This document shows positions 29,230 through 33,973 of a stretch of 64,000 nucleotides of DNA, piece by piece. The first letter of the stretch is position 1. The number at the start of each line of letters is the position of its first letter. The stretch is from Mesoterricola silvestris (lineage in GTDB: Bacteria > Acidobacteriota > Holophagae > Holophagales > Holophagaceae). The stretch is taken from the NCBI RefSeq assembly GCF_030295405.1, contig NZ_AP027080.1:4076001-4140000 (forward strand). Reading direction: 5' to 3'. The translations under genes and the position numbers were made by a program. The notes below the pieces were generated by a model. The model was given only the letters and a program-made list of their open reading frames with translations. It was not told the DNA's origin and ran no database searches.

Positions 29230-29258
29230 TTGGCACCCCCCCCGATTCATGATTCAAT
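29230..29258 (+). promoter_or_regulatory. σ70-type promoter of the aromatic operon
   Basis: TTGGCA (29230-29235) and TTCAAT (29253-29258) are separated by exactly 17 bp, matching 5 of 6 and 4 of 6 consensus bases. The start site would fall near 29265, about 15 nt before the leader-peptide ATG, as expected for an attenuator. Confidence 0.5.
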
Positions 29259-29279
29259 CCATCCCCATAGAGCAGGACC

Positions 29280-29381
29280 ATGACCGCCCATTCCGCGACC
29301 TTCACCTTTACCCCCGCCGCCCGCCGTTATTATTACGGCGGCGGCGGAGGACTGGTCGAGGCATGGAGCCCTAACAGCTAG
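29280..29381 (+). CDS. Aromatic leader peptide (33 aa)
   Basis: A 34-codon frame reads MTAHSATFTFTPAARRYYYG, then a glycine run and a tail with a single Trp, ending at TAG. It contains two Phe, three consecutive Tyr codons and one Trp, far more aromatic residues than chance in this GC-rich DNA. The Tyr codons (TAT TAT TAC) form the loop of a GC hairpin between CCGCC-type and GGCGG-type arms. The peptide ends 19 bp before a strong intrinsic terminator, which lies before a gene for aromatic synthesis. This is the layout of a translation-coupled attenuator. Ribosome stalling at the aromatic codons would favour read-through. Confidence 0.8.
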   Translation: MTAHSATFTFTPAARRYYYGGGGGLVEAWSPNS

Positions 29382-29400
29382 AAGCTCCCGCACCCCTTCG

Positions 29401-29436
29401 AACCCGTCCCCCAGATCCTGGCGGACGGGTTTTTTC
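29401..29436 (+). terminator. Attenuator terminator
   Basis: AACCCGTCC (29401-29409) pairs perfectly with GGACGGGTT (29423-29431); inside it CCAG-ATC-CTGG extends the stem after one C-C mismatch. A run of T follows (29430-29435). It stands between the leader peptide and the biosynthetic ATG at 29472, so transcription must pass it for the enzyme genes to be expressed. Confidence 0.88.
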
Positions 29437-29471
29437 GTTGCCGGGAAAGGCGGACCCTCCAGGAGAACCCC

Positions 29472-31493
29472 ATGGACCCCACGCAGGAAACCCTCGGCGC
29501 CGCCCGCAGGGAGATCGACGAGACCGACCGTGAACTCATCCGCCTCCTGGCGCGCCGCTTCGAGGCGGTGCGCCTGGTGGCGGAGGCCAAGGCCGGCGAC
29601 GGCGAAAGGCCCGTCATGGACAACGACCGGGAGCGGGACGTGCTCTCGGCCTGGATCAAGGACGCCGAGGACCTGGGGCTTTCGGCGCCCTTCGCCCGGC
29701 GGATCCTCAAGGAGATCCTCAGCCATTCCCGCAGGCTCCAGGAGCCCGTGGTGGAAGGCAGCCCCTCCCGGGCCCGCAAGGTGAAGGTGGGCTACCAGGG
29801 CGTGGCGGGCTCGTACAGCTCGGCGGCCGCGGCCCACCTCCTGTCCACCCGCAGCGCCCAGGGCGGGGAGCTCATCGGCCACCCCATGTTCCTGGACGTG
29901 GTGGAGGCCCTCCAGTGCGGGGCCATCGACTACGGGTTCCTGCCCATCGAGAACAGCATCGGCGGGGCCATCGCGGACGTGAACCGGCTCCTCATCGACA
30001 ACCTCCTGCACATCGTGGACGAGGAGGTGTGGGACGTGGACCACGTGCTGGCCGCCAAGCCCGGCGTGACCCTGGAGCAGATCCGCGTGGTGCGCAGCCA
30101 CCCCGCCGCCCTCACCCAGTGCGAGGGGTTCCTGCGGTCCATGGACGACGTGACCCGCCAGCCCTGGTTCGACACCGCCGGCGCCGCCGAATCCCTCCTG
30201 GAGGAGAGCGCCCGGGACGTGGGGGCCATCTGCTCCGAGGAGGCCGCCCGGGCCCGGGGCCTGGACGTGCTGGCCACCCGCATCGCCGACCAGGAGCACA
30301 ACGAGACCCGCTTCCTGCTCCTGGCCCGCGCCCCGGAGCCCCCCGATCCCCGGGTGCCCAGCAAGACCTCCATCGTCTTCCGCCTGAACCACCACGAAGG
30401 CACCCTCTCCAGGGCCCTGGGCATCTTCGCCCAGGCCGGGGCCAACCTCACCCGCATCGAGAGCCGGCCGCTGCCGGACACCCCCTGGGAGTACCTCTTC
30501 TTCGTGGACGTGGAGGGCCACCAGAACGCCCCGGCCCTGGCCCGGGCCCTCAAGGAGCTGCGGGGTTCCTGCAACCACCTGCGGGTGCTGGGCACCTACC
30601 CCCGGCGCACCCGGGGCCAGGAGGCCCACCTCGATGCCGCGGCCCCGGCCGCCGTGCCCGAGCCGGTGCTCTCCTGCGAGGCGAGGCCCGAACCCGCCCC
30701 CGCCGCCGGCCCCGCCCGCGCCGCCTTCAAGATCGGCAACGTCACCGTCGGCGAGGGCCAGTTCGTGCTCATGGCCGGCCCCTGCGCGGTGGAGAGCCGC
30801 CAGCAGATCCTGGAGGGGGCCCGCATGGTGCGCGCCGCGGGGGCCACCATCCTCCGGGGCGGCGCCTTCAAGCCCCGCACCTCGCCCTACGCCTTCCAGG
30901 GCCTGGGGCTGGAGGGCCTGCGCTACCTGGAGGAGGCGGGCCGCGAATGCGAGATGCCCATCGTCACGGAGATCCTCACCATCGAGGACATCTTCGCGGT
31001 CTCCGCCAAGGCCGACATGCTCCAGGTGGGCGCCCGCAACATGCACAACTTCGCCCTGCTCAAGGAGCTGGGCAAGCTGGACAAGCCCATCCTCCTCAAG
31101 CGCGGCATGAGCGCCACGGTGAAGGAGCTGCTGCTGGCCGCCGAGTACATCCTCCACGGCGGCAACCAGCGGGTGGTGCTCTGCGAGCGGGGCATCCGCA
31201 CCTTCGAGACCGCCACCCGGGCCACCCTGGACATCGCCGCGGTGCCCGTCCTCAAGGGGCTCACCCACCTGCCCGTCATCGTGGATCCCTCCCACGCCGC
31301 CGGGGTGCGCCACCTGGTGGTGCCCCTGGCCCTGGCCGCCGCGTCCGCGGGCGCCGACGGACTGATCGTGGAGGCCCACCCCAACCCCGCCGAGGCCCTC
31401 TGCGACAAGGACCAGGCCCTCACCCGCGAGGACATGGCCGCGCTGCATGCCGGCCTTCGGCCCATCGTGGACGCCCAGGGGAAGAAATGGTGA
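29472..31493 (+). CDS. Chorismate mutase-prephenate dehydratase-ACT-DAHP synthase fusion
   Basis: 673 residues with four units. Residues 1-95 are an AroQ-type chorismate mutase helix bundle ([22 protein letters not shown]). About 104-285 is prephenate dehydratase: [26 protein letters not shown] and the catalytic NETRFLLL near 276. About 300-385 is an ACT domain with IESRP, the phenylalanine-binding motif. About 415-673 is a type I DAHP synthase of the KDO8P-like branch: [37 protein letters not shown] and EAHPNP. One chain would thus carry the first step of the shikimate route and the two committed steps to phenylpyruvate, with Phe feedback through ACT. GGAG at 6-nt spacing precedes the ATG. 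Confidence 0.93.
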
Positions 31494-32641
31494 CCCTCAA
31501 TACCCGCGCCGGCAGCGCCGGCCTCTCCCCCACCATGGCCGGGGCCTCCGCCCCCTGCCTGCACCCCGACCCCGTGGACCTCACGGTGGGCGAGCCCGAA
31601 GGCCTGCCCCCGGTGGAGGTGCGCGAAGCCGCGGCCCGCGCCGCCCTGGAGGGCCGCACCCGCTACGGCCCGGCGCAGGGCCTGCCCGCCCTGCGCGAGC
31701 TCCTGGCCGCGGACCTGACCCGGCGGGACGGGATTTCCCGGTCGGCCGAATCCGTCCTCGTCACCGCCGGCGGCAAGCCCGCCATCCTCGACGCCCTGCG
31801 GTGCATCCTGGAGCCCGGGGACGAGGTGCTGATCTTCGCGCCCTACTGGCCCACCTTCAAGGACCAGGTGGCCTGGGCCGGGGGCACCCCCGTCATCGTG
31901 CCCCCGGGCCCCGATCTCCTCCCCGCCGAGGGCGCCCTGGACCGGGCCCTGGGCCCCCGCACCCGGGCCGTCATCCTCAACCAGCCCTCCAATCCCACCG
32001 GCCGGGTGTGGGACATCCCCCGGCTCCAGGACCTGGCCGACGTGATCCTGGAGCGCGACCTGTGGCTGGTGCTGGACCAGGTGTACGGCACCCTCACCCT
32101 GGACGGCCCCGAGGTGCCCTGTCTGCGCACCTGCCCCGACCTGGCCGACCGCACCCTCCTGGTGGAGAGCTTCTCCAAGCGCTTCGCCATGACCGGGTAC
32201 CGCCTGGGCGCCGCCGCGGGGCCTCCGGGCCTCATCCGCGCCATGACCGGACTGGGCTCCACCAGCGTCACCCACCCCAGCATGATCAGCCAGCACGCCG
32301 GCATCGCCGCGCTCCAGCTGGACGGCGCCTTCGAGCGGGAGATGGCCGAGGGCCTCCGGGTGCGCCGGGACCGGCTCCAGGCCGGCCTCAACGGCATCCG
32401 GGGCATCCGCTGCGGCCGCCCCGAAGGGGCCATCTACCTCTTCCCCCACGTGGGCGAATGGATGGAAGCCCACGGCGTCGCCTCGGACCCGGAGCTCGCC
32501 GCGCGCCTGCGGGACGAGGCCGGCGTGAAGGTGCTCCCCGGCTCCGCCTTCGGCGCCCCGGGCTACCTGCGCATCTCCATCGCCGCCTCCCTGGATGCGC
32601 TGGACAAGGCACTGGAGCGCATGAGGACCTTCCTGGCCTAG
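31487..32641 (+). CDS. Aspartate/aromatic-type aminotransferase (class I/II)
   Basis: 384 residues, fold-type I PLP enzyme. Marks: [31 protein letters not shown], the [12 protein letters not shown] loop, [11 protein letters not shown] and the Schiff-base lysine in [16 protein letters not shown] (Lys231). Its ATG lies inside the last codons of the fusion gene (7-nt overlap), so the two are coupled in translation. That setting suggests that it transaminates phenylpyruvate, 4-hydroxyphenylpyruvate or prephenate, although a general aspartate aminotransferase role cannot be excluded from sequence. The operon appears to end here. Confidence 0.9.
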
Positions 32642-32670
32642 AAAAAGGCCGGGCCCCAGGGGGCCCGGCC
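32642..32670 (-). terminator. Intrinsic terminator of metK
   Basis: GGCCGGGCCC (32647-32656) and GGGCCCGGCC (32661-32670) form a perfect 10-bp stem with a 4-nt loop. Read on the minus strand it is followed by five Ts (32646-32642), so it stops metK transcription. It begins right after the aminotransferase stop codon; on the plus strand the T-run is missing, so termination there would be weaker. Confidence 0.85.
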
Positions 32671-32687
32671 TCTGCTGTTCCGTTAAA

Positions 32688-33860
32688 TCAAACGCGGACT
32701 TCCTGCCTCCGGGCGGCCGCGGCCAGGGCCGCGGCCTTGTCGGTGCGCTCCCAGGGGAAGCCGTCGCGGCCGAAGTGGCCGTAGCTGGCGGTCTCCCGGT
32801 AGATGGGGCGCAGGAGATCCAGGGTGGTGATGATGCCCTTGGGGCTCAGGTCGAAATGCTCGGCCACGAGCCGCTCCAGCTGCTCGTCGGAGACGGTGCC
32901 GGTGCCGAAGGTGGTGACCATGACGCTCACGGGCCGGGCCACGCCGATGGCGTAGGCCACCTGCAGCTGGCACCGGGAGGCCAGGCCCGCGGCGACGATG
33001 TTCTTGGCCACGTACCGCGCGGCGTAGGCCGCGGAGCGGTCCACCTTGGAGGGGTCCTTGCCGGAGAAGGCGCCGCCGCCGTGGGGGGCGGAACCGCCGT
33101 AGGTGTCCACGATGATCTTGCGCCCCGTGAGGCCGCAATCGCCCTGGGGGCCGCCCACCACGAACTTGCCCGTGGGGTTGACCAGGTACTCGGTGCCCTT
33201 GAGCCAGGCGGCGGGCATCACGGGCTTGATGATCTCCTCGATCACCGCCTCCCGCAGGACCTCGTAGGGGATGTCCTCGGCGTGCTGGGTGGACACGACG
33301 ATGCTCTCGGCGCCCACGGGCCGTCCGTCCACGTAGCGCAGCGTCACCTGCGACTTGGCGTCGGGGCGGAGCCAGCCGAAGATGCCCTCCTTGCGGAGCC
33401 GGGCCTGGCGCTCCATGATCCGGTGGGCGTAGTGGATGGGCGCGGGCATGAACGCCTCGGTCTCGTCGCAGGCATAGCCGAACATGAGGCCCTGGTCGCC
33501 GGCGCCCTGCTCCTTGTGGAGGCCCTCCCCCTCGGTGACGCCCTGGCTGATGTTCTGGGACTGCTTGTCGTAGCAGACCATCACGGCGCAGCCCCGGTGA
33601 TCGATGCCGAAGTCGGTGTTGTCGTATCCGATGTCCTTGAGGACGCCCCGGGCGATCTGGATGTAGTCCACCACGGCGCTGGTGGTGATCTCCCCGGCCA
33701 TGACCACCAGGCCGGTGTTGCAGAGGGTCTCCGCCGCCACCCGGGACGCGGGGTCCTGGGCAAGGCAGGCGTCCAGCACCGCATCGGAAATCTGGTCGGA
33801 GACCTTGTCCGGGTGGCCTTCGGACACGGACTCCGAGGTGAATAGGTAGTTGCTCGACAT
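32688..33860 (-). CDS. metK: S-adenosylmethionine synthase
   Basis: 390 residues. It makes S-adenosylmethionine from methionine and ATP. Signature elements are all present: [25 protein letters not shown] at the N-terminus, [16 protein letters not shown], the P-loop-like [18 protein letters not shown] and DLRP-type C-terminal segments ([17 protein letters not shown]). Length is normal. Two ATGs are adjacent; the second is preferred because GGAG then stands 6 nt away rather than 3. A SAM-binding riboswitch fills its leader, so the gene is presumably shut down when SAM is plentiful. A strong terminator lies 18 bp after the stop. Confidence 0.97.
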
Positions 33861-33888
33861 CATGTTCTCCAGGGTTTCAGGTTGGAAT

Positions 33889-33970
33889 CCTGCGCATGGG
33901 ATCTTGGGATCCAGGGCACCGCAGCTTCCTGCTCGGTTGCCGACCCCTTTCGGGGCACTCTACATGCAGT
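33889..33970 (-). promoter_or_regulatory. SAM riboswitch, SAM-I/SAM-IV clan variant
   Basis: The minus-strand leader of metK shows P1 closed by GCATG (33967-33963) and CATGC (33898-33894), then GAGTGCC, a CCCC-GAAA-GGGG hairpin, the core CGGCAACC, a GCAG-GAAG-CTGC hairpin, the core GGTGCC, and a GGATC-CCAA-GATCC hairpin before P1 closes. GGCAACC and GGTGCC in this order, plus GAGTGCC, are the conserved core of the SAM-I/SAM-IV clan. The gene served makes SAM, so feedback control is expected. There is no terminator between it and the ATG, so the likely mechanism is translational, acting on the GGAG site at 33867-33870. Confidence 0.8.
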
Positions 33971-33973
33971 GCT

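Follow-up and report, generated by a model that had tools for sequence, protein, structure and literature searches.

A predicted phenylalanine- and tyrosine-sensing transcription attenuator upstream of a chorismate mutase-prephenate dehydratase-DAHP synthase fusion gene in Holophagaceae

Classic ribosome-mediated attenuation is represented by the pheL-pheA and trpL-trpE systems of Escherichia coli (PMC11802643). By signal, the closest known system to the one described here is the aroR leader, which precedes the aroF (DAHP synthase) operon of Corynebacterium glutamicum and, in the account of Neshat et al. 2014 as reported in PMC11802643, carries Phe-Tyr-Phe in a row and reacts to a shortage of Phe. 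Other candidates upstream of aroF include the uORFC-13-1 motif, for which one or more Phe residues are described (PMC8632094), and Tyr attenuators that were proposed in Shewanella and E. coli according to PMC2659441, citing Camakaris 1980. According to a 2010 survey, hardly any of the attenuators predicted in acidobacteria were associated with a function (PMC2965389), and our search of the literature on attenuators or leader peptides in Geothrix or Acidobacteria, the coverage of which was incomplete, returned no report for Holophagaceae.

The locus described here lies in a stretch of 64,000 nucleotides from Mesoterricola silvestris (hereafter the window), to which all coordinates refer unless a contig or locus is named. 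It resembles E. coli pheL-pheA and trpL-trpE in combining end-product codons in a short leader, mutually exclusive hairpins and an intrinsic terminator ahead of a biosynthetic gene; furthermore, E. coli pheA also encodes chorismate mutase-prephenate dehydratase (CM-PDT), as does the Holophagaceae fusion gene. Unlike in pheL and trpL, the signal is Phe plus Tyr, and the target is fused to DAHP synthase. In the E. coli trp system, moreover, the untranslated leader terminates, whereas the predicted ribosome-free state of the Holophagaceae leader is no clear terminator. With C. glutamicum aroR, the Holophagaceae system shares Phe and Tyr codons in one leader before a DAHP synthase and transcription attenuation by ribosome stalling; the two differ in that the Holophagaceae leader has a Phe-x-Phe element apart from its Tyr cluster, its downstream gene also carries CM-PDT and it belongs to another phylum. 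The proposed uORFC-13-1 and Shewanella and E. coli aroF cases likewise place a uORF or tRNA-sensing attenuator before a DAHP synthase, albeit in other lineages, and the likeness drawn here is at the level of description. Rfam leader families (Trp, Phe, His, Leu, Thr and others) gave no match at the gathering threshold, and a permissive search returned unrelated sub-threshold matches; no Rfam T-box or riboswitch matched the fusion leader. The principle of attenuation is already known, and the points of interest are the Holophagaceae leader set and the merged Phe/Tyr signal. Given that the leader is conserved with its aromatic codons, as are the hairpins and the terminator, we propose that the locus is very probably a ribosome-mediated transcription attenuator, which would sense the charging of Phe-tRNA and Tyr-tRNA and control the fusion gene together with an overlapping aminotransferase gene; the response to charging in the cell is what these sequence features predict.

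The gene concerned encodes a chorismate mutase-prephenate dehydratase-ACT-DAHP synthase fusion of 673 aa (29472..31493, + strand; Pfam PF01817, PF00800, PF01842 and PF00793), the DAHP synthase part of which corresponds to the NCBIfam DAHP_synth_Bsub domain. Its stop codon is overlapped (ATGGTGA) by the start of a class I/II aminotransferase gene (31487..32641, + strand; PF00155, E 1.4e-63), the presumed second gene of the operon. The aminotransferase gene adjoins the fusion in 5/6 of the family orthologs checked, and was looked for but not found beside fusions outside Holophagaceae. With these two genes the presumed operon would span the entry into the shikimate pathway, the branch to Phe and, probably, the final transamination; aminotransferases of class I/II often act on both Phe and Tyr. 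The aminotransferase gene converges with metK (32688-33863, - strand), and a GC-rich hairpin between the two (32647-32671) is possibly a shared terminator. Directly upstream of metK lies a SAM-I-IV riboswitch (RF01725, 48.9 bits, 33862-33972, - strand), the sole Rfam match in the window.

A first-pass annotation, made from the sequence alone, had pointed to promoter-like boxes, a 33-codon frame with TTC/TTT, a Tyr triplet and a Trp codon, a GC hairpin and a strong terminator before the enzyme ATG. All of these were recovered on the + strand, and only the statement that the hairpin loop is exactly the Tyr codons needs adjustment. The promoter-like pair (29230..29258) consists of a -35 box TTGGCA (29230-29235) and a -10 box TTCAAT (29253-29258) separated by a 17-nt spacer; it matches 9/12 consensus bases, a score reached by 0/300 shuffles. 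It is followed by a likely ribosome-binding site AGCAGGA (29271..29277), which is retained as GAGCAGGA in three orthologs (L086, L006 and L090). The leader ORF of 33 codons, MTAHSATFTFTPAARRYYYGGGGGLVEAWSPNS, extends from the ATG at 29280 to the TAG at 29381 (29280..29381). Its most conserved control codons, in near-invariant columns, are Phe codons 8 (TTC) and 10 (TTT) at 29301..29309. Three consecutive Tyr codons, 17-19, follow at 29328..29336, where relatives have Tyr/Phe (or Arg/Gln-Phe), and the single Trp is at codon 29. The Tyr codons are enclosed by the 1:2 hairpin (29316..29345; arms 29316-29327 and 29335-29345), whose loop UAUUAUU is closed by a U-A pair and therefore covers them to within one base. 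Region 2, the predicted antiterminator strand GGAGGACTGGTCGAGG (29346..29361), lies inside the leader ORF and comprises Gly codons and the codons just after them. Region 3, CCTTCGAACCCGTCCCCC (29395..29412), comprises the 5' arm of the terminator and the preceding CCTTCG, and is the alternative partner of regions 2 and 4. The intrinsic terminator, or 3:4 hairpin (29401..29435), has a stem of about 10+4 pairs (29401-29413/29419-29431; dG -22.5 kcal/mol for the 34-nt core) and a U-tract with six U reaching 29435; the next ATG after it is the start of the fusion gene. An automatic promoter and terminator scan listed neither the promoter-like pair nor the terminator, the latter probably because of the 8-nt loop limit of the scan and the internal mismatch of the stem. 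As a whole, the 202-nt leader region is predicted to fold into a far more stable structure than its dinucleotide shuffles (z -5.0; 0/200).

We compared nine distinct fusion orthologs, window included, all from Holophagaceae, where the full fusion is found in only 9/77 genomes. The leader-hairpin-terminator layout is present upstream of the fusion in 9/9 genomes, down to 65-68% protein identity; the frame, the codon motif and the hairpins are kept, and the sequence further upstream of the leader differs. The leaders, which range in length from 23 to 34 aa and are intact in all nine, begin MTAHSATFTFTPAARRYYYGGGGG, MTAHSATFTFTPAARRNYYGG, MTTSSATFTFTPAARRYYYGG, MTSPTSTFTFTLAARRYYYGG, MRMFYAFTCAAGRFYFGFGG, MTTTTFSFTYAYRYFIGGG, MHSCLITFAFTYAYRRYFGGG, MFTATFAFTRAFRRFTRRG and MRPSSFFAFTCAFRQFTWRG. 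The motif F-x-F-T-x-A-x-R-(Y/F) is kept in every one of them, with Phe columns 8 and 10 nearly invariant; in these putatively translated ORFs Phe codons are conserved in 9/9 and Tyr codons in 7/9, the remaining residues drift, and nonsynonymous changes exceed synonymous ones. A TTGRCA/C-type promoter matching 9-10 of 12 bases lies just 5' of the leader in 7/9 orthologs. The GC stem of the terminator is found in all nine and is directly adjoined by a well-formed U-run in seven, the U-tract being almost absent in L008 and broken in L088. A leader model built from the same nine orthologs recovers 9/9 of them in whole genomes at E 1.2e-25 or better; weaker matches (L113-L130) were discarded, as those inspected look like chance and many fall within coding regions. 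No leader was found upstream of six fusions outside Holophagaceae (from Planctomycetota, Deltaproteobacteria and one other bacterium). The same predicted arrangement before the same gene in nine distinct genomes is the decisive evidence that it goes beyond chance. The attenuator layout recognized by the first-pass annotation hence survives the comparison of upstream regions: the relatives retain the frame with its aromatic codons as well as the stem of the terminator, the hairpins show compensatory changes, and none of the Holophagaceae fusion orthologs lacks both the frame and the terminator.

Two metagenome assemblies show irregularities. In G004, with 8% contamination, an orphan copy of the leader and terminator (L131, MPTFTFTYAYAYRWFTGGGGVMGGALS; G004:C267:3292-3435) has a promoter-like site and no fusion downstream, and the fusion leader of that genome sits on another contig; the orphan may be an assembly or second-strain effect, possibly a chimeric contig. 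In G056 the match to the fusion is split in two, residues 1-171 and 292-673 (L016/L100), which indicates that the gene is frameshifted, truncated or mis-assembled there.

Across the nine orthologs 88.9% of the cells of the 1:2 hairpin are paired, with 5/11 pairs changed on both sides; the corresponding figures for the terminator are 92.3% and 3 pairs. Taken together, the two hairpins have 90.7% of their cells paired, as against 85.2% in column shuffles and 31-58% in slid registers, and 8 double-sided pair changes as against 3.3 in shuffles. Pairing between regions 2 and 3 holds for 87.5% of cells in 7/9 orthologs, versus 35-59% when slid, a value that 1/1000 column shuffles reached; these seven include close relatives and are not seven independent tests. 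Over all nine the figure is 80%, which is not clearly above column shuffles (10% reach it), and the two orthologs from genus g4 (L098 and L016) have a weak antiterminator register. The energies of single-sequence 2:3 duplexes did not differ significantly from mononucleotide shuffles for most orthologs in this GC-rich DNA, and we turned instead to folding with the ribosome at successive positions, tested against dinucleotide shuffles. As the antiterminator is the less stable of the two alternatives in the window and in most orthologs, the switch would depend on the order of folding.

For these calculations the folded transcript ended with region 3 made and region 4 absent, and the front edge of the ribosome was set 11 nt past each A-site codon. 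In the window, region 3 is paired at about 0.77 when the ribosome sits on the middle Tyr codon and at 0.08 when it sits on the stop codon. Across seven orthologs the pairing probability is 0.76-0.98 for a ribosome on the last Tyr codons and drops to 0.01-0.17 for one on the stop. The difference between stall and stop in 7/9 orthologs was matched by at most 2% of dinucleotide shuffles, and for L098 and L016 the simulation did no better than the shuffles; an antiterminator dependent on ribosome position is thus computed for seven orthologs, including the window, and unsupported for the two from genus g4. The simulated switch point coincides with the end of the Tyr cluster, and this drop would explain the place of the Tyr codons in the hairpin loop. 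Region 2 is also left free by a simulated stall slightly upstream, at the Phe codons. With no ribosome on the pre-terminator transcript, region 3 is paired at 0.25-0.99, i.e. tied up in most orthologs, and this state is not clearly terminating in the calculation; the 1:2 hairpin with its covariation is nevertheless present.

Under the proposed mechanism, RNA polymerase would start about 14 nt 5' of the leader ATG and a ribosome would begin to translate the leader. With ample charged tRNA it would pass the Phe and Tyr codons and region 2 and reach the stop codon; in the computed folds region 3 would then be free to pair with region 4, and transcription would terminate. Under a shortage of Phe or Tyr it would instead stall within the Tyr-codon hairpin or just 5' of it at the Phe codons. 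The exposed region 2 would then pair with region 3 ahead of the synthesis of region 4; no terminator would form and the fusion would be transcribed, as computed for 7/9 orthologs.

The first-pass annotation had placed the DAHP synthase step under overall aromatic supply, which would imply that Trp is sensed as well and that Trp29, near the end of the leader, also stalls the ribosome. Trp29 is indeed found in the window, L086 and L006, and stand-alone DAHP synthase leaders of genus g3 carry Tyr, Trp and Phe. However, the residue is replaced by Arg in L090 (G003) and absent in L088, L007, L008 and L098 (genomes G001, G004, G068 and G057), with L016 and the orphan copy L131 having one Trp each at another position; as Trp29 is not conserved, the claim for all three aromatics is not supported. 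Furthermore, region 3 is already free once the simulated ribosome has reached codon 29. A stall at this codon would therefore promote termination, which is evidence against an inducing role of Trp. The fusion leader would thus have no conserved Trp signal; in the window's genus the supply of Trp is apparently left to another leader, a Trp leader that precedes trpE and has a second DAHP synthase nearby. Taken together, we consider the sensing of Trp by the fusion leader improbable. The link to the DAHP synthase step itself stands, supported by the family-wide comparison in which the leaders of CM-PDT are dominated by Phe, those of stand-alone DAHP synthase are of the Tyr-Tyr-Trp type and that of the fusion has Phe and Tyr.

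A further alternative would place control at translation or with Rho, the ribosome-binding site of the fusion being unmasked or masked by the stalled ribosome. It could draw on the poor U-tracts of L008 and L088 and on the position of that site only about 30 nt 3' of the terminator stem. Yet an immediate U-run follows the GC stem in the other seven orthologs and the alternative pairing takes the terminator arm rather than the ribosome-binding site, making this reading distinctly unlikely. The leader ORF could also encode a small protein functional in its own right, as its conservation and likely ribosome-binding site would allow; its variable length and the drift outside the aromatic/Arg motif, with the excess of nonsynonymous changes, are instead what is expected of a leader in which codons and RNA matter rather than the protein, and we regard a functional product as very improbable. 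That the region is an ordinary short UTR with the terminator of an upstream transcript, its aromatic frame having arisen by chance, might be entertained given the GC-richness and the mostly non-significant single-sequence duplex tests against plain shuffles. The retention of frame, control codons and hairpins in nine divergent orthologs despite differing sequence further upstream, their recovery by the leader model built from them and the promoter directly 5' of the leader render it exceedingly unlikely. We accordingly retain attenuation of transcription in response to Phe and Tyr as the preferred reading.

Other amino-acid leaders, each type with terminators of its own, were detected in Holophagaceae. 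Unfused CM-PDT genes are preceded, by pattern, by a Phe leader in 35/38 upstream regions, typically SRRFFAFSFRTSGARVGGV; an alignment of 26 copies shows no variation at Phe10, Phe12 and Arg13, and drift at many other positions. This leader (MxxSRRFFAFSFRTSGARVGGV) shares with that of the fusion its aromatic character, a GC-rich terminator, the CM-PDT activities and the family, but has Phe with little Tyr, is about 22 aa long, possesses a different terminator stem (CCCCCGAG..CTCGGGGG) and is mostly undetected by the fusion model. Upstream of stand-alone DAHP synthase genes a Tyr/Trp/Phe leader was found in 15/29 cases, for example MTPRFHRYYWFPRTDRAWHGEGPA with Tyr-Tyr-Trp; L203, L213, L216 and others combine a MTPRFHRYYWFPRTDRAWHGEGPA-type leader with a CCCCGATCC..GGATCGGGG terminator. 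The version in genus g3, which is probably Geothrix, is a probable three-aromatic attenuator. Leaders with at least two Trp codons precede trpE in 12/12 genomes checked (MNNSTWNWCWWPQGSG in the genome of the window, where L229, C1:2936336-2936755, has the Trp leader MNNSTWNWCWWPQGSGVCVGSLRT followed by the terminator CGGCCCACCTTCACGGTGGGCTTTTT). In the three one-contig genomes of the window's genus, trpE has a second DAHP synthase gene on its own strand at a distance of about 2 kb; the genus-g3 genomes that were checked have none near trpE. These positions suggest a division of labour, with Trp control exerted via the trpE cluster, in which the linked DAHP synthase may be co-transcribed, and Phe/Tyr control via the fusion. 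Neither of the other two close paralogs of DAHP synthase in the window's genome was found to have its own attenuator, and no Tyr leader with a terminator precedes tyrA in five genomes. Outside aromatic synthesis, a Leu-rich leader MRTNLSLNLLLALPLSGAGED with a terminator precedes a LeuA-like 2-isopropylmalate synthase gene (L112 1501-1630, G051) and is a probable Leu attenuator; the leuA-like gene of the window's genome (L230) has no convincing leader.

This matched set of leaders indicates that leader codons track the enzymes encoded downstream. It also raises the possibility, which we regard as plausible though short of probable, that upon fusion of CM-PDT with DAHP synthase the leader merged the Phe and Tyr signals, the Trp signal staying with the trpE-linked DAHP synthase, such that control codons record the enzyme activities that they govern. 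A whole set of aromatic attenuators, whose specificity follows enzyme content, appears in one acidobacterial family, so that the retuning of leader codons upon the merger of enzymes can be addressed. Short ORFs that gene callers have probably missed thereby acquire a likely function, and entry into the shikimate pathway is predicted to be under Phe/Tyr control in Holophagaceae.
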